This document shows positions 35,918-62,678 of a DNA stretch of 64,000 nucleotides, piece by piece; positions within the stretch are counted from its first letter, which is position 1; each line of letters opens with the position of its first letter. A program made the translations under genes and the position numbers. A model generated the notes under the pieces. That model was given only the letters and a program-made list of their open reading frames with translations. It searched no databases and was not told the origin of the DNA. Origin of the DNA: Marinobacterium mangrovicola (GTDB lineage: Bacteria; Pseudomonadota; Gammaproteobacteria; Pseudomonadales; Balneatricaceae); the NCBI RefSeq assembly GCF_004339595.1, contig NZ_SMFU01000008.1, forward strand, positions 682,001 through 746,000, in the 5' to 3' direction.

Positions 35918-37312
35918 TCAGCCCTCGCTCTCGCCACCTTCCTTGTCGCCGCCTTCCTTGAACATCCCCGGCGTCAGGTGGTTGCGCTGCAGCAGACGGT
36001 AGAACTCGGTGCGGTTGCGTCCCGCCAGCCTGGCGGCCTGTGTAACCTGGCCGTTGGTGATCTTCAGTAGCTGTACCAGGTAATCCCGCTCGAACGCCTC
36101 CTTGGCCTCCGAATAGGTGCGGATGCTGGGGCTTTTCTGTTGCAGTGCGCGCTCTACCAGCGTGACCGGCACCAGCGCTGTGGTGCAGAGTACGCAGCAC
36201 TGCTCCACCACGTTTAGCAGCTGACGGATGTTGCCCGGCCAGTCATAGGCGACCAGACGTTCCAGCGCGTCCGGCGTAAAGTCCTTGGCGCGGTGCGGAT
36301 GTTTGGCCTGCAGTTGGGTCAGAAAATGGCGTGCCAGCAGGGGGATATCCTCGCGCCGCTGGCGCAGTGATGGCAGCGTCAGCGTGACCACGTTGAGGCG
36401 GTAGTAGAGATCTTCACGAAACTCGCCGCTGGCGATGGCGTTTTCCAGGTTGCGGTGTGTTGCCGAGACAATGCGGACATCCACCGGAAGCGTCTGGCTG
36501 GCGCCGACGGGGCGGATCTCCCGGTCCTGCAGCACGCGCAGCAGTTTCGCCTGCAGTGCCAGCGGCATATCGCCGATTTCATCAAGAAATACGGTGCCGC
36601 CAGACCCGGTCTGGAACAGGCCCTTGTGGGCACTGGTAGCGCCGGTGAAGGCGCCCTTGGCGTGACCGAAAAGCTCCGACTCCAGCAGCTGCTCGGGGAT
36701 GGCGGCACAGTTGATCGCCACCATCGGTTTATCGCGCCTCGGGCTGGCGCGATGCAGCGCCTGGGCCAGTACCTCTTTGCCGGCGCCGGAGGGGCCCTGG
36801 ATCAGGACGCTGGCTTCACTGGCGGCCACCAGCTCGGCGTCCGCCAGCAGCGCTTCCATGGCGGGGCTGGCGGTCTGGATATCGGCCCGCCAGGCCTGAT
36901 CGCCACTGGCTGCTGCGCCATCCGAACTATCGGTACAGCCGGGCGCCGCGAGGGCTTGCTGCAGCAGTTCCAGCAGGGCGTTATCGTCGAAGGGTTTGGT
37001 CAGGTAGCCGAACAGACCGCGCTGGGTCGCGCGGACTGCGTCCGGAATGGTGCCGTGGGCGGTCAGCAGGATCACCGGCAGCGCCGGGTCTTCGCTCTGG
37101 ATGCGCTCGAACAGCTCCATGCCGCTCATCCCATCCATGCGTAGATCGGTCACCACCGCGCCGGGGCGAGACACCGCGATACGGGCCAGAGCCTGCTCCG
37201 CGCTGGCGGCGGTTTCCACGGAGAAACCGGCCGATCTCAGCCGGATCGATAACAGTTGCAGCAGGCCGGCATCATCGTCCACCAGCAGTACGGTGCGGTG
37301 AACGTTGCTCAT
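35918..37312 (-). CDS. glrR: Sigma-54-dependent response regulator GlrR (QseF)
   Basis: A 464-residue NtrC-family activator: receiver (LLVDDDAGLLQLL, TDLRMDGMSG, LLTAHG, YLTKPFDD), AAA+ sigma-54 domain (GPSGAGKE, ESELFGHAKGAFTGA with the GAFTGA sigma-54 loop, GGTVFLDEIGD) and a C-terminal Fis-type helix-turn-helix (VTQAARLAGRNRTEFYRLLQRN). It closely follows E. coli GlrR, which with GlrK activates sigma-54 promoters including that of the GlmY small RNA. Distal gene of glrK-qseG-glrR; its start overlaps the qseG stop by four bases. Confidence 0.94.
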   Translation of the reverse strand: MSNVHRTVLLVDDDAGLLQLLSIRLRSAGFSVETAASAEQALARIAVSRPGAVVTDLRMDGMSGMELFERIQSEDPALPVILLTAHGTIPDAVRATQRGLFGYLTKPFDDNALLELLQQALAAPGCTDSSDGAAASGDQAWRADIQTASPAMEALLADAELVAASEASVLIQGPSGAGKEVLAQALHRASPRRDKPMVAINCAAIPEQLLESELFGHAKGAFTGATSAHKGLFQTGSGGTVFLDEIGDMPLALQAKLLRVLQDREIRPVGASQTLPVDVRIVSATHRNLENAIASGEFREDLYYRLNVVTLTLPSLRQRREDIPLLARHFLTQLQAKHPHRAKDFTPDALERLVAYDWPGNIRQLLNVVEQCCVLCTTALVPVTLVERALQQKSPSIRTYSEAKEAFERDYLVQLLKITNGQVTQAARLAGRNRTEFYRLLQRNHLTPGMFKEGGDKEGGESEG

Positions 37313-37827
37313 GGGCGCACCTCTGACAGGTCAGTGGTCATCGGTACCTCGATTTCCAGCTCCTCCTCAAGGCCTTTCAGCTGTTCGATCTTGTCTCTGT
37401 ATTCGCGGGTTTCCTGCACCTGCTGACGCAGCGCCAGCATCAGCTCCAGCTTGCGCTGATAGATCGCTAGCAGTGCCTGACGCTCGTCGGTGGCAAACTC
37501 CGGGTTGCGGGTCAGAGTACCGAGAATCTGCTGGGCCTGGCGCAGCTCGTCATTCGTCGCCTGGGTGTGTCCCAGCAGGCAGGCGTGATGGAACTGCTCC
37601 GCCGCCGGCTGTGACCTTGAGCCGTCAAAGCGCGATGTCAGCAGCTGTTGGCGTTGATTCAGGCTCAGCTGTTCCTGTGAGGCGAGGCAGTCGAGCATCT
37701 CGCCGAGCATCGGGTTCGCCGGTATCGCGTGCTGACGGGCCGGTTCCGGGTTGCTCTGATCCTTGGACGCACAGCCTGCCAGTAAGGTGATGGCGAGCAC
37801 GGCGAGCGCAGTTATCCTCCTATCCAC
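37309..37827 (-). CDS. qseG: QseG/GlrG-type lipoprotein of the GlrK-GlrR operon
   Basis: A 172-residue lipoprotein with the lipobox LLAGC after a short hydrophobic signal and a coiled-coil-prone C-terminal third (RQQVQETREYRDKIEQLKGLEEE). Its place between glrK and glrR matches E. coli qseG, whose product acts on the sensor kinase GlrK at the membrane. I prefer the GTG at 37827 with GGAG upstream and overlapping the glrK stop by eight bases; the frame opens at 37866, but that start would add a charged segment before the signal peptide. Confidence 0.85.
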   Translation of the reverse strand: MDRRITALAVLAITLLAGCASKDQSNPEPARQHAIPANPMLGEMLDCLASQEQLSLNQRQQLLTSRFDGSRSQPAAEQFHHACLLGHTQATNDELRQAQQILGTLTRNPEFATDERQALLAIYQRKLELMLALRQQVQETREYRDKIEQLKGLEEELEIEVPMTTDLSEVRP

Positions 37828-39262
37828 GAGGGGGAGTCTCCTTGTTGTTCGGTAGTGATATTTCAAAATGGGCGCCAGGCTCAGCGGAAGGCTTGAGACT
37901 GAGTGTACCGCCGAGCTGTTCTATATGGGTTTTGGCGATGGCAAGCCCCAGCCCGCTGCCTTTCAGAGTGCCCTGGGGTTGCCGGGTTCCCTTGTAAAAC
38001 GGCTGGAACAGCAGTTCGGTCTGGCTTTCGGCGATGCCGGGGCCCTGATCCCTGACGCTGATGCGCAGGGTCTCGCCGTCGCAGCTGGCGTCGATGCCAA
38101 GCACTCCGCCCTTGGGGCTGAAGCGAATCGCGTTACTGATCAGGTTCTCCAGCGCCACGCTGAGACGGTTGCGATCCGCCTTGAGCTGAACCGGCTCAAG
38201 CTGGCTTTCCCAGCGGAGCTGCTGGCTGCGCAGTGTCAGATCGAAGCGGCTTTTGATCTCATCGATCAGCGGCTGCAGTTCGAACCAGTCAGGCTCCAGC
38301 GAGGCTTGCGCGATCGCTTCGTTGTAACGCAGCAGATCTTCTATGCGCTGGCGCAGGTTAAAGGCACTGCCACGCATGATCTCCACCACTTCGCTCTGCT
38401 GCGTTGTAAGTGGGCCGGTGACCTCGTCACGCAGCAGGGAGACGGCTTCAAGCATGTTGGTCAGTGGGGTTTTCAGTTCATGGGAGACTTCACGGAAGAA
38501 GTTAAGCTTTTTCTCCTCCAGCTCCAGCAGGCGGCAGCGCAGCCACTCAAGCTGCTGACCCAGAAGCTCAAGGTCGCGCGGACCGTGAATATTGATCGGG
38601 CTCTCCAGGTCATTCTGTCCCAGGCGGCGGATATTGGCGGACAGCTTACGTACCGGTCGGCTGAGCAGCCAGGCAAAGATGGCGGCGAGCAGCAGCGACA
38701 GCAGGATCATGCCGGCGGCCAGGTAGATCATGGCGCTTTGGATCTCGCTGGCGGTGTCGTTCATACCGGTGACCAGGTGGTCGCGAATATAGTCGGTGGT
38801 CGCTTCGCTGAGTAGCTCCGTGGCCAGATCCAGCCTGTCGAACTCCAGTTTATAGGTGTCATAGCTACCGCTGGCAGGGGCATTCGCCAGCTGTTGGTAC
38901 AGCCTTTGCTCCTGTCGTGACAGGTCCACTACCTGCTGCGCCAGCTCCAGGCTCCAGGGTAGGGACTCCAGGTGATCGAGTACCTCGGTAAAGCGCAAGT
39001 GTGCCCGGTCCAGACGTTCTTTCAGCGATGGGTCCTCAAGCACGAAGTATTGACCCGCGGCGCGCTTCAGTGCTGTTTCGGCTTCGCTGAGCTGGCGGCT
39101 GGCCCCGGTAATCTGAGCGCTGATGGTGACCGAGCGGCGGCCTTCCAGGGCCATCTGCTCCAGCGCATAGGTCATGCCGATGATGCCACCCAGTAGTGGC
39201 AGCACGACCAGAATAAAGCCGGTAATCAGCAAACCGGGGAAAGAGGGGAGATGACGTGGCAT
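37820..39262 (-). CDS. glrK: Sensor histidine kinase GlrK (QseE)
   Basis: A 480-residue membrane kinase: a first transmembrane helix (LLITGFILVVLPLLGGIIGMTYAL), a periplasmic helical sensor, a second helix near residue 190, HAMP, HisKA with SHELKTPLTN, and HATPase (NLISNAIRFSPKG, VRDQGPGI, GSGLGLAIAKTH). It is the proposed partner of GlrR. I take the ATG at 39262 (MPRHLPSFPG); the frame extends upstream to 39367 but lacks character there. It diverges from a predicted small RNA whose promoter carries GlrR-type sites. Confidence 0.92.
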   Translation of the reverse strand: MPRHLPSFPGLLITGFILVVLPLLGGIIGMTYALEQMALEGRRSVTISAQITGASRQLSEAETALKRAAGQYFVLEDPSLKERLDRAHLRFTEVLDHLESLPWSLELAQQVVDLSRQEQRLYQQLANAPASGSYDTYKLEFDRLDLATELLSEATTDYIRDHLVTGMNDTASEIQSAMIYLAAGMILLSLLLAAIFAWLLSRPVRKLSANIRRLGQNDLESPINIHGPRDLELLGQQLEWLRCRLLELEEKKLNFFREVSHELKTPLTNMLEAVSLLRDEVTGPLTTQQSEVVEIMRGSAFNLRQRIEDLLRYNEAIAQASLEPDWFELQPLIDEIKSRFDLTLRSQQLRWESQLEPVQLKADRNRLSVALENLISNAIRFSPKGGVLGIDASCDGETLRISVRDQGPGIAESQTELLFQPFYKGTRQPQGTLKGSGLGLAIAKTHIEQLGGTLSLKPSAEPGAHFEISLPNNKETPPRG

Positions 39263-39374
39263 TAGCGGCACAGGATCGGTATTCCTTCTGATCGGCGCGA
39301 CGGTCGTTAGATATCTTCTCTGGCAGAACATTCTACCATGCTTGTTGCGCGGGGAGTCTGGCGTCAAAACCGCT

Positions 39375-39457
39375 TGTCGCTGAGCGGCGACGCCATAACT
39401 TATTGTATTTTAAGGGCTATTGGCGGTACGGTCTGTGGAAGTCGCCTGGAGGCGACA
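39375..39457. promoter_or_regulatory. Two GlrR-type activator sites upstream of glrK
   Basis: TGTC-N10-GACG at 39375-39392 and AGTC-N10-GACA at 39440-39457 each match the GlrR consensus TGTC-N10-GACA at all but one base. Both also share the longer palindrome GTCGC-N6-GCGAC. Centres are 65 bases apart and 75-160 bases before the sigma-54 promoter, the usual distance for enhancer-type activators. Confidence 0.75.
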
Positions 39458-39499
39458 GCGGGGTAAGCGAAAAAAAGTCGAGATAAAGCCAAAGTTATT

Positions 39500-39512
39500 T
39501 AAGTTGTTGATA
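39500..39512 (-). promoter_or_regulatory. IHF site
   Basis: TAAGTTGTTGATA fits the complement of the IHF consensus (YAANNNNTTGATW) at every defined position. It lies between the activator sites and the sigma-54 promoter, where DNA bending is needed. Confidence 0.7.
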
Positions 39513-39531
39513 ATTAGGAATTAATTTGTTT

Positions 39532-39546
39532 TGGCACACTCCGTGC
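39532..39546 (+). promoter_or_regulatory. Sigma-54 promoter
   Basis: TGGCAC at 39532-39537 and TGC at 39544-39546 have the required GG-to-GC spacing of the -24/-12 promoter (consensus TGGCAC-N5-TTGC; one mismatch at the first T). Transcription would start near 39557 on the plus strand. Confidence 0.78.
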
Positions 39547-39556
39547 TTTGTACATA

Positions 39557-39884
39557 CGGCTTAGCAAGGGCATCCTGAGCTTCCCCAGCCACAGGATAAT
39601 GGCCAGCGAAGCCGGTTGAGGGCGAAAGCGCCAGGTCGGCCGTGTTTTATGCATCCAGGTTTTATGCATACAGGTTAGCGGGATTCGCCAGTGGCGGGTT
39701 CCCAAAGGTTCCGGGTCAGGTGGTCGGTTATTGTTTTTACGGCAGGGAGTTCTCAGGAAGGAGGCTTCTCGCCTGGGTACGAATCGAAGGGGGATAAGTA
39801 TCCGAAGCAACAATCGCCTGCCCGCCCCGGCATATGCTTTTCATAGCGGCGTCGCTCCCTGCACTGGCGGCGCCGCTTTTTTCT
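39557..39884 (+). ncRNA. Predicted GlrR/sigma-54-dependent small RNA
   Basis: A roughly 330-nucleotide transcript is predicted from the sigma-54 promoter and the terminator at 39845-39884. No convincing plus-strand reading frame lies inside. Internal hairpins include GGCG-AAAG-CGCC near 39628 and GGGA-TTCGCC-AGT-GGCG-GG-TTCCC near 39679. In E. coli the GlmY small RNA gene occupies the same place beside glrK and is driven by GlrR, IHF and sigma-54. I see no sequence similarity to GlmY, so a functional analogue is only a hypothesis; the start point is estimated. Confidence 0.6.
39845..39884 (+). terminator. Rho-independent terminator of the predicted small RNA
   Basis: AGCGGCG and CGCCGCT form a stem followed directly by TTTTTTCTTT. 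No gene precedes it on the plus strand for over 4 kb, which is why a non-coding transcript is inferred. Confidence 0.8.
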
Positions 39885-40211
39885 TTATCCCATCTATATA
39901 ACCTACCTCTGAATCTCATTTCCTGCAGAGCGGTTAAGCCTTTTTCCTCGCAGGGTTACCGGCTGGACTGATTGTCTATCGGTCTGACAGCTGGCTATTT
40001 CTGAGCCATCCTTAAATTCGGTCTTGCCGGAAAAATGTGTTACTGATGTAGTAAAGTCAGAACGCATCAAAGGCATAGATCCGGGCTCGGATAAACCATT
40101 ACGATAAAAAACGACCATAAAAGTCAGGGCCTGAAAAGATTGATCAGCGCTCAGGCGCCCCTCATGTTTTTGCGATTCCATTATCTCCAGTGAAAAGGCC
40201 AACAGACCGTT
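39885..40211 (+). promoter_or_regulatory. edd promoter region with a TTACT-N5-AGTAA palindrome
   Basis: About 330 bases before edd. The palindrome at 40040-40054 could bind a regulator such as HexR, the usual repressor of these genes, but it does not match the HexR consensus closely. No gene is seen here. Confidence 0.4.
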
Positions 40212-42044
40212 ATGAATACTACCGTTGCTGCCGTCACTCAGCGGATTATCGAGCGTAGTCGTGATAGCCGCGCCGATTATCTGAGCCGCATGGCCCAGGC
40301 CCGCGATAACAAACCCCATCGTTCCGTGCTTTCGTGCGGTAACCTCGCCCACGGTTTTGCCGCCTGTGGGGGCGAAGACAAGGAGCGCCTGACGCTGATG
40401 GATCAGGCCAACGTGGCGATTATCTCCGCTTACAACGATATGCTTTCAGCGCACCAGCCGCTGGAGCAGTTTCCGGCACAAATAAAAGAAGCCGTGGCGG
40501 CGATGGGCTGTGTCGCCCAGTTTGCCGGCGGCGTGCCGGCCATGTGTGATGGTGTGACCCAGGGACAGCCGGGGATGGAGTTGAGCCTGTTCAGCCGCGA
40601 TACCATCGCCATGGCTACGGCGGTGGGCCTGTCTCACAATATGTTCGATGCGGTGCTCTGCCTTGGTGTTTGCGACAAGATCGTGCCGGGCCTGATGATC
40701 GGCTCTTTGGCCTTTGGCCATCTACCGGTGATTTTCGTGCCCGCAGGCCCCATGACCAGTGGTTTGCCGAACAGCGAGAAGTCCCGCATCCGTCAGCTTT
40801 ATGCCGAAGGCAAGGTGGGCCGTGACGAGTTGCTCAAGTGTGAGTCCGATTCCTACCATGGCCCCGGCACCTGTACCTTTTACGGCACCGCCAACTCCAA
40901 TCAGCTGTTGATGGAAGCGATGGGTGTACATCTGCCCGGCGCTTCGTTTATCAATCCCAACACGCCGCTGCGTGAGGCGCTAACCCGGGCGGCGGCGGAG
41001 CAGGCCTGCCGGATCACCGAGCTGGGCCGCGATTACCGTCCGCTGAGTGAAGTGATCGATGAGAAAGCGATCGTCAACGGCATAGTGGCGCTGCTGGCGA
41101 CCGGCGGCTCCACCAACCACACCATGCATATCATCGCCATCGCCCGGGCGGCGGGCATTATCGTTAACTGGGATGATTTCGCCGATCTGTCCGAGGTGGT
41201 GCCGCTGTTGACCCGGATCTATCCCAACGGCAGCGCGGATATTAACCATTTTCATGCGGCGGGAGGGATGTCTCTGCTGTTCCGCGAGTTACTGAGTGCG
41301 GGCCTGCTGAACGAGGATGTGACCACGGTAATGGGCAAGGGCTTTACCGAGTACACCCGGGAGCCCTATCTGGACGAAGGGCAGCTGAAGTGGCGTGAAG
41401 GGCCGGCGGAGTCCTTGGATAAGGCTGTGGTCGCTTCGATAGCCGAGCCGTTTTCCGCCAATGGCGGGCTGCGTCTGATGGGCGGTAATCTTGGCCGCAG
41501 TGTGATGAAAGTCTCCGCAGTTAAACCCGAGCACCGCGTGGTAGAGGCTCCGGCTGTGGTACTGCACGACCAGGATGAGTTGAAGCCGATGTTCGAACGC
41601 GGCGAGCTGGATCGTGACTGCGTGCTGGTGGTTCGTTTCCAGGGGCCCAACGCCATCGGCATGCCGGAACTGCACAAATTGACGCCCTTCCTCGGCACGT
41701 TGCAGGATCGCGGCTTCAAGGTGGCATTGGTCACCGATGGTCGCATGTCTGGTGCATCCGGTAAGGTGCCGGCAGCGATACACCTGACACCGGAAGCGAC
41801 CCAGGGCGGTTTGATCGCCAAGGTGCGTAACGGCGATCTGGTCCGTGTGGATGGCGAAGCCGGCGAACTGACACTGCTGGTGGACGATGCGGAGCTGGCC
41901 TCCCGTGAGCAGGCAACCGCGGATTTGGGCGGCAGCCACTTTGGGATGGGACGGGAGCTGTTCAGCGGTATGCGCAGGCTGGTATCCGGCGCGGAAGAGG
42001 GCGCCAGTTTCCTGTTTGTGGATGAATCATCAACTTCGCGCTAG
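40212..42044 (+). CDS. edd: Phosphogluconate dehydratase (Edd)
   Basis: A 610-residue IlvD/Edd-family iron-sulphur dehydratase with [11 protein letters not shown]-type N-terminal region, [14 protein letters not shown] and [15 protein letters not shown] cysteines for the cluster, [11 protein letters not shown] and [17 protein letters not shown]. It dehydrates 6-phosphogluconate to KDPG in the Entner-Doudoroff pathway. First of edd-eda-pgl on one strand; eda starts 11 bases after its stop. Confidence 0.97.
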
Positions 42045-62593: not shown

Positions 62594-62678
62594 ATCCTTT
62601 CTCGAAAAGGCAAACCCCGAGTAATCGGGGGACGCAAAGCCGCGGGTCCCTGTCGGGATGGCCAGGCTATCGAAGGAG
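62594..62678 (+). ncRNA. c-di-GMP-I (GEMM-I) riboswitch
   Basis: The conserved core is intact: GGCAAACC at 62609-62616, P2 hairpin CCCGA-GTAA-TCGGG with a GNRA tetraloop, GACGCAAAGCC at 62631-62641, then a P3 hairpin ending ATGGCCAGGCTATCGAAGG. The closing helix pairs TCCTT/AAGGA with TCGA/TCGA. It lies 150 bases before the HDOD gene and should control it in response to c-di-GMP. Confidence 0.9.

Follow-up and report, generated by a model that had tools for sequence, protein, structure and literature searches.

The locus described here raises the question of what a GlrR-controlled, sigma-54-dependent promoter beside glrK produces where no gene follows it, and whether that product is a counterpart of the small RNA GlmY. 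The window, which is the whole stretch of DNA analysed (64,000 nucleotides (nts), positions 682001-746000 of its contig, from a genome of 4.98 Mb), contains such a promoter. A sequence-only reading had proposed that it drives an undescribed small RNA of this lineage, placed and controlled as glmY is in Escherichia coli, with a possible effect on glmS. We examined the promoter, the predicted transcript and the corresponding loci of related genomes, and the results favour a regulatory RNA that would descend from the 3′ untranslated region (UTR) of an mRNA and would not be GlmY.

Gene content and relatives of the locus

According to the GlrK sequence, the nearest named genomes are those of Marinobacterium lutimaris, M. 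ramblicola, M. zhoushanense and M. lacunae, followed by a Motiliproteus, and the window organism is a Marinobacterium close to M. lutimaris. The window species and M. lutimaris are sisters in the GlrK tree with a support of 99/100, and the other deep forks of the clade to which the two belong have no settled order. The genes glrR, a lipoprotein-like gene and glrK lie in this order on the minus strand, followed by the intergenic RNA region and then by edd on the plus strand (Table 1). The best NCBIfam match of GlrR is the GlrR model itself, at 605.6 bits, and since this score is below the model cut-off of 763, the names glrR and glrK rest on best match, domains and gene order. The lipoprotein-like gene had no match in Pfam or NCBIfam.

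Two observations concern the surroundings. The region directly upstream of edd (39991-40211) is 95% identical to that of M. lutimaris (210/221), compared with 66% at fourfold sites of edd, and could represent either a densely regulated region or a further RNA element; three of the four other Marinobacterium edd genes have a different upstream region with the palindrome-like TACGTAANTAAATTACA. A c-di-GMP-I riboswitch was found by Rfam at 62599-62674 of the window (61 bits).

Table 1. Features of the glrK-edd locus, in window coordinates.
Feature	Position	Strand	Basis or remark
glrR, sigma-54-dependent response regulator	35918..37312	-	best NCBIfam match GlrR
lipoprotein-like gene, in place of qseG	37309..37866	-	gene order
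glrK, sensor kinase	37820..39367	-	named from operon order and domains; start codon uncertain
GlrR-type site 1, TGTCGCTGAGCGGCGACG	39375..39392	+	consensus fit, motif counts
GlrR-type site 2, AGTCGCCTGGAGGCGACA	39440..39457	+	consensus fit, motif counts, conserved offset in 5/5 species
IHF consensus match, TATCAACAACTTA	39500..39512	-	perfect match; offset not conserved
sigma-54 promoter, TGGCACACTCCGTGCT	39532..39547	+	motif, conserved spacing to GlrR site; putative transcript start ~39558
poorly conserved 5′ part of predicted transcript	39558..39706	+	alignment to M. lutimaris
structured RNA core, long closing stem and two hairpins	39707..39832	+	fold, covariance models, comparison
hairpin 1	39741..39773	+	hexaloop AGGAAG, 39755-39760
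hairpin 2	39775..39803	+	tip GAAGGGG, 39786-39792
intrinsic terminator, 12-bp GC-rich hairpin and T-run	39845..39884	+	fold; 39850-39879 identical in M. lutimaris
edd, next downstream gene	40212..42044	+	starts 328 nt past terminator

Promoter elements and their spacing

The published consensus of the GlrR (QseF) upstream activating sequence is TGTN12ACA (PMC6075780), and each of the two sites in the window has five of its six letters. A pattern derived from these two sites themselves gave three matches, at two places, in the window where 0.13 was expected, and three matches were reached in none of 100 shuffles. The exact palindrome GTCGCCNNNNGGCGAC occurs at a single place in the 4.98 Mb genome, namely site 2; when up to one mismatch was allowed, it was found at 17 places including both sites here, and the reversed control pattern at 119 per strand.

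Taken alone, the sigma-54 box is not significant, with one occurrence in the window versus 0.55 expected and an occurrence in 44 of 100 shuffles; in the genome there are 39 matches to its pattern versus 23 to the reversed one. The convincing part is the fixed distance to the GlrR site, as the start of site 2 lies 92, 92, 92, 92 and 94 bp from the box in the window species, M. lutimaris, M. ramblicola, M. zhoushanense and M. lacunae, respectively. Site 1 is found at -157 from the box in the window species and M. lutimaris, with a weaker match at -159 in M. lacunae and, by this pattern, none in M. ramblicola or M. zhoushanense. No sigma-70 promoter was found between 39300 and 40220.

The IHF consensus WATCAANNNNTTR is matched perfectly on the minus strand between site 2 and the box. 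This match is weak evidence, because the window contains two matches versus 1.13 expected and all four other species lack one at this offset; in two of them a match lies 92 bp further upstream, and the other two have no consensus match. The two near-consensus GlrR sites and the sigma-54 promoter named by the sequence-only reading were therefore borne out by the consensus fit and the conserved spacing, and its perfect IHF site stood as a match to the consensus but not as a conserved position. The combination of GlrR (QseF) sites and a sigma-54 promoter, which is a feature of GlmY and GlmZ, is present here at the sequence level.

The predicted transcript

The promoter is predicted to give a non-coding RNA of about 327 nts, from about 39558 to 39884. 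The strong terminator expected some 330 bases downstream of the promoter was recovered by folding, 327 nts on; the terminator scanner reported none, its loop limit being 8 nts and the loop of this hairpin 9 nts. A script found no open reading frame (ORF) of at least eight codons with a ribosome-binding site in the predicted transcript, in agreement with the earlier statement that no gene lies between promoter and terminator. Two short frames, one of six codons (ATG at 39599) and one of nine codons without a ribosome-binding site (ATG near 39651), were set aside. With its own promoter, a terminator taken from the fold and not from the scanner, and no ORF, the region has the layout of a trans-acting small RNA.

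Conservation along the transcript is uneven. In the alignment to M. lutimaris, 38 of the 88 aligned bases of 39558-39660 are identical, and 179 of 210 are identical in 39674-39884. The corresponding values at fourfold sites are 134/222 (60%) for glrK, 33/58 for the lipoprotein-like gene and 213/321 (66%) for edd. Folded in full, the 327-nt transcript shows no unusual stability (z = -1.25).

Fold of the core and strand preference

When the cores of the five species were folded one by one, the same architecture was obtained each time, with z-scores of -1.93 in the window species and -3.45, -6.35, -6.96 and -7.95 in the others; the minus strand of the M. lacunae core folds better still (z = -9.54). 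All five have an invariant outer CGGG/CCCGG base and, in hairpin 2, an invariant GAAGGGG tip, the predicted loop being GAAGGGG in two and GAAGG in three. The complement of this tip occurs in the window at one place on the plus strand and 13 on the minus strand, one of them the RNA gene itself, and the count is uninformative. The letters AGGAAG in the hexaloop of hairpin 1 are common to the window species and M. lutimaris only. This hexaloop presumably resembles the CsrA/RsmA motif, and a role as CsrA/RsmA sponge was considered and dropped because the three sister species do not conserve the loop.

Changes at paired bases favour the strand of the promoter. Between the window species and M. lutimaris, 10 of the 12 varying pairs are kept on the plus strand and one of 12 on the complement, a result that is modest against random placement of the same changes (P = 0.013) and not significant when the pair count is compared with two-sequence shuffles (127/500 shuffles). 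Between M. zhoushanense and M. ramblicola, all four varying pairs are kept on the plus strand and none on the complement. In an alignment of four species, both sides had changed in 24 of 44 pairs and 97.5% of the cells pair, versus 33.8-48.7% when the pairing partners were slid, although fitting the alignment to the structure, as was done here, works in favour of the covariation count. The stems are mostly rewritten, yet still paired, between the two structural groups of cores. RNAalifold on a plain MAFFT alignment of the five cores gave -21.7 kcal/mol, with a covariation term of -0.12 and 11 of 36 pairs changed on both sides; this meagre result arises because MAFFT misplaces the 3′ stem. Within the limits of the pair and model tests, the conserved structure that marks a small RNA is thus found on the transcribed strand. 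Substitutions between the window species and M. lutimaris in 39740-39884 are spread over the three codon positions as 6, 5 and 4.

Distribution of the core

A covariance model of the cores of the window species and M. lutimaris (R1) was run with filters off on the loci of M. lutimaris, M. ramblicola, M. zhoushanense and M. lacunae and on the core's own locus (33 kb). On the promoter's strand, in the stretch behind an EF-hand gene described below, it matched in M. zhoushanense with 26.3 bits (E = 2.1 × 10-4) and in M. lacunae with 24.6 bits (E = 5.1 × 10-4), these E-values being rough; in M. ramblicola, a match of 13.3 bits (E = 0.27) was at the right place but level with the background (13.2). 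The minus strand of the model's own core scored 20.5 bits, and part of the scores of 24-26 bits may be what any long stem of such kind would receive; R1 scored higher on the plus than on the minus strand at every core. With default filters, M. zhoushanense alone was found beyond the model's own members (E = 0.0011), and an order-wide search with stricter filters found one of 390 genomes, its own.

A model of the M. zhoushanense and M. ramblicola cores (R2) found the core of M. lacunae (E = 2.2 × 10-7) and did not recover that of the window species or M. lutimaris. A third model, built from the cores of four species (R3), detected that of the fifth, M. ramblicola, in a search of 70 loci (E = 5.5 × 10-15), a result that is not independent since M. 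zhoushanense is close. Among 116 family genomes R3 found exactly the five Marinobacterium with a GlrK match, four of which had trained it, and no core in the three Marinobacterium genomes without a GlrK match; at the same place in M. zhoushanense it also gave a weak minus-strand match (E = 0.07). The conservation beside glrK that had been looked for in related genera was therefore seen in five Marinobacterium and, with R3, in no other of the 116 family genomes.

Searches by other means gave a narrower picture. At the DNA level, a search of 57 relatives gave matches in no genome other than those of the window species and M. lutimaris. The 19-mer of hairpin 2 with up to three mismatches occurred in 43 of the 116 family genomes, as did its reversed control (43), and the informative matches are the exact ones only, in the window genome and M. 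lutimaris. No core-like RNA was found upstream of edd in the four other Marinobacterium genomes with an edd match. Rfam, at gathering and relaxed thresholds, returned sub-threshold matches only for the region, the best being CcsR1 with 16.7 bits versus 65.3 needed (E = 0.29), and nothing in 17 loci of relatives; no Rfam family fits the core. In five relative loci the sole Rfam matches were to the c-di-GMP-I-GGC riboswitch, located elsewhere, in three of the five (minus strand, L067 489-564, L066 180-254 and L065 187-262; two of the three below the gathering score). These lie past the PhoX-type gene that neighbours the EF-hand gene in the sister species.

An EF-hand gene between promoter and core in related species

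In M. ramblicola, M. zhoushanense and M. lacunae an ORF sits between promoter and core (loci L006-L008); it encodes an EF-hand protein of 96, 96 or 95 amino acids, respectively, with a signal-like start. The Pfam family EF-hand_5 matched the three proteins with E-values of 1 × 10-9, 2.9 × 10-9 and 8.8 × 10-11. The gene is absent from the glrK locus of the window species and M. lutimaris; an EF-hand query in the window's own genome gave no match, an empty answer that carries no weight for that search. The core thus lies behind an ORF, in the manner of a 3′ UTR, in three of the five species. A terminator-like hairpin separates the EF-hand gene from the core in M. lacunae, where none is visible behind the core (by eye). 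Because the EF-hand gene stands between promoter and core, the core of the three sister species is probably the 3′ UTR of the EF-hand mRNA.

We surveyed the EF-hand gene in 68 of the 69 family genomes (116 searched) that had a GlrK match at 1 × 10-40; one fragment (G099) was left out. Apart from the three proteins tested with Pfam, the calls were made by a motif script, which flagged 54 of the 68 loci; L011, with a lone motif and no signal peptide, was dropped, and L010, at a contig edge, was left unjudged. A small secreted-looking EF-hand protein adjoins glrK in 53 of the 68 loci, 49 in tandem and four divergent, and is represented in 11 of the 12 genera that have a GlrK match; in Motiliproteus, EF-hand genes occupy the same divergent position. 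The 15 loci without it are those of the window species and M. lutimaris, all eight of one genus (coded g6) and five of another (g13, one at a contig end). Since it is found beside glrK in 53 of 68 family loci, the EF-hand protein is probably the older output.

An inspection of 12 loci without the EF-hand gene, which left out L105, L106 and much of L104 and L110, yielded a separate observation on g6. Close upstream of glrK, L019 and L090 have both a GlrR-type and a sigma-54-type site with no EF-hand gene between, whereas L031 and L103 have a sigma-54-type site only upstream of glrK. Possibly, the region upstream of glrK in g6 is an autoregulated leader that accompanies a second loss of the EF-hand gene.

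For the five Marinobacterium loci, the simplest history would be one loss of the EF-hand gene. The homology of the two structural groups of cores, which we infer, rests on the two moderate R1 matches and on the common tip, shape, strand and position. The proposal of an undescribed small RNA of the lineage is accordingly to be modified: the sequence supports a GlrR/sigma-54-controlled non-coding RNA beside glrK that has no Rfam match, but a core of the same architecture is shared by five Marinobacterium species, three of which have it behind an EF-hand gene.

Comparison with GlmY and RapZ

GlmY of the Enterobacteriaceae resembles the RNA described here in being a non-coding RNA beside glrK with GlrR (QseF) sites and a sigma-54 promoter, and its control is described as involving these elements with help from IHF (PMC6075780). 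However, E. coli glmY lies in tandem with glrK (qseE), upstream of it and on the same strand, whereas the RNA here is divergent from glrK, so that the earlier claim of the same locus and control holds for the GlrR/sigma-54 control beside glrK but not for the orientation. In addition, GlmY is 184 nts long, compared with about 327 nts for the Marinobacterium RNA, whose fold is different. The Rfam models of GlmY and GlmZ matched neither the window nor the loci of relatives, and R3 compared with E. coli glmY gave nothing above chance (best overlap 5.6 bits, E = 2.4), consistent with the earlier remark that the sequence differs from glmY. The GlmZ model matched none of eight genus genomes and three of 14 control genomes including E. 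coli.

The window genome has a gene for RapZ (L127 1117-1977), the protein having D in place of K270 and lacking K281-R282-K283. Its surroundings, of the hpf-ptsN-rapZ-npr type, are kept. As described for E. coli, the joint mutation of K270, K281, R282 and K283 abolishes RNA binding by RapZ (PMC5737377), and RapZ holds two stem loops (PMC9841335). The core does have two predicted hairpins; contact with RapZ is nevertheless unlikely, and a role in glmS control is unsupported. Identity with GlmY was rejected on the missing Rfam match, the opposite orientation, the absence of GlmZ matches in the genus genomes and the RapZ without the four residues, and the suggested equivalence to GlmY and effect on glmS are not supported.

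Discussion

We consider it rather probable that the locus encodes a GlrR/sigma-54-induced regulatory RNA that derives from an mRNA 3′ UTR and acts in trans with the tip of hairpin 2 as its contact. Phosphorylated GlrR would bind the two upstream sites and activate the sigma-54 promoter, which would yield the non-coding RNA of about 327 nts ending at the terminator at 39884. Its working part would be the 126-nt core, with its long stem and two hairpins. Originally, the core would have been the 3′ UTR of an EF-hand mRNA under GlrR induction; a single loss of the reading frame, in the last ancestor that the window species shares with M. lutimaris, would have left the RNA in place. Such an RNA would most likely be a trans-acting small regulatory RNA, and the invariant GAAGGGG tip may be the contact to another RNA or a protein. 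This reading draws on the promoter layout, the conservation, the structure, the strand preference and the EF-hand gene, present before the core in three species and absent in two; it supposes transcription, GlrR dependence, homology of the two groups, the direction of the loss, action in trans and the role of the tip.

Other explanations, which are not mutually exclusive, were weighed against it. The core may instead be a cis-acting 3′ UTR element for stability or processing of the EF-hand mRNA and, in the window species, a functionless relic that is still transcribed. Stable 3′ stems often protect mRNAs, and both this and the position of the core behind the EF-hand gene in three species would suit such an element, as would the poor conservation of the 5′ part of the window transcript. 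We nevertheless regard it as unlikely: a relic is disfavoured because it would be expected to decay like that 5′ part, whereas the core region is constrained without the EF-hand gene (179/210 versus 60% and 66% at fourfold sites) and most of its pairs persist in the two species that lack this gene. That the RNA is a GlmY-like decoy, sequestering RapZ and thereby raising GlmS, has in its favour the same regulator, promoter kind and glrK-adjacent position, a RapZ encoded in the genome and two stem loops such as E. coli RapZ is described to bind (PMC9841335), but the lack of an Rfam match, the R3 comparison with E. coli glmY at chance level, the GlmZ model (0/8 genus genomes versus 3/14 controls), the altered RapZ residues and the orientation opposite to that of glmY make it quite improbable.

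It is likewise improbable that the region is an edd leader or attenuator, in which GlrR-driven transcription enters edd unless terminated at 39884. The gene edd is indeed next on the same strand, behind the 95% identical stretch 39991-40211, yet a strong hairpin terminator lies 328 nts before it, the four other Marinobacterium genomes have no similar RNA upstream of edd, and the core stays with the glrK-side promoter. If the conserved element belonged to the opposite strand, where it might for example form the 3′ end of the convergent PhoX-type gene of the sister species (identified as PhoX by Pfam in M. ramblicola, L065), this would explain why the M. lacunae element ends near a PhoX-type gene (by eye) and why its minus strand folds very well. 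Such an assignment is very improbable, as in both species pairs the varying positions remain paired on the plus strand and mostly lose their pairing on the minus strand, R1 is higher on the plus strand at every core, and the window species and M. lutimaris have edd and not a PhoX-type gene past the element. Finally, in both the window species and M. lutimaris, one frame is open across most of the core, as a small protein would need, but with substitutions even over the codon positions (6, 5, 4), no start with a ribosome-binding site and at least eight codons according to the script, and a 1-base gap inside the core between the two species, an encoded protein is hardly credible.

Small RNAs derived from 3′ UTRs are a known class in bacteria, CpxQ being an example. 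The regulatory RNA favoured here resembles them in that the core lies behind an ORF, in the same direction of transcription, in three sister species, and differs in that the window species and M. lutimaris lack the ORF and the RNA is the only predicted product of the promoter. As for the protein, EfhP is described as a bacterial EF-hand calcium sensor (PMC11559002, PMC9132961); the proteins of the sister loci are also small and have EF-hand motifs, by Pfam for the three, calcium binding here being putative. Literature searches, outside which most subscription papers lay, gave only enterobacterial or unrelated papers among the matches listed for GlrR, sigma 54, small RNA and GlmY, only unrelated matches for Marinobacterium small RNA, and nothing linking EF-hand with GlrR; among the matches listed for EF-hand, QseF two-component and periplasmic, none combines EF-hand and QseF.

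A wider history, which we hold tentatively and at somewhat less than an even chance, would regard GlrK-GlrR as an envelope sensor whose older output in this family was a periplasmic EF-hand protein. In Marinobacterium, the mRNA of this protein would have gained a structured 3′ RNA, and one branch would have dropped the protein, leaving the RNA as sole output, so that a GlrR-controlled small RNA would have arisen a second time, independently of GlmY and by another route. The stimulus of GlrK-GlrR in E. coli K-12 was given as unknown in 2018 (PMC6075780). If the reading is true, the locus would be a genus-level case of an mRNA 3′ UTR that turned into an independent small RNA while its promoter stayed the same, both states still being present in named sister species, and GlrK-GlrR would be tied to secreted EF-hand proteins across a marine bacterial family, suggesting a calcium or envelope signal.
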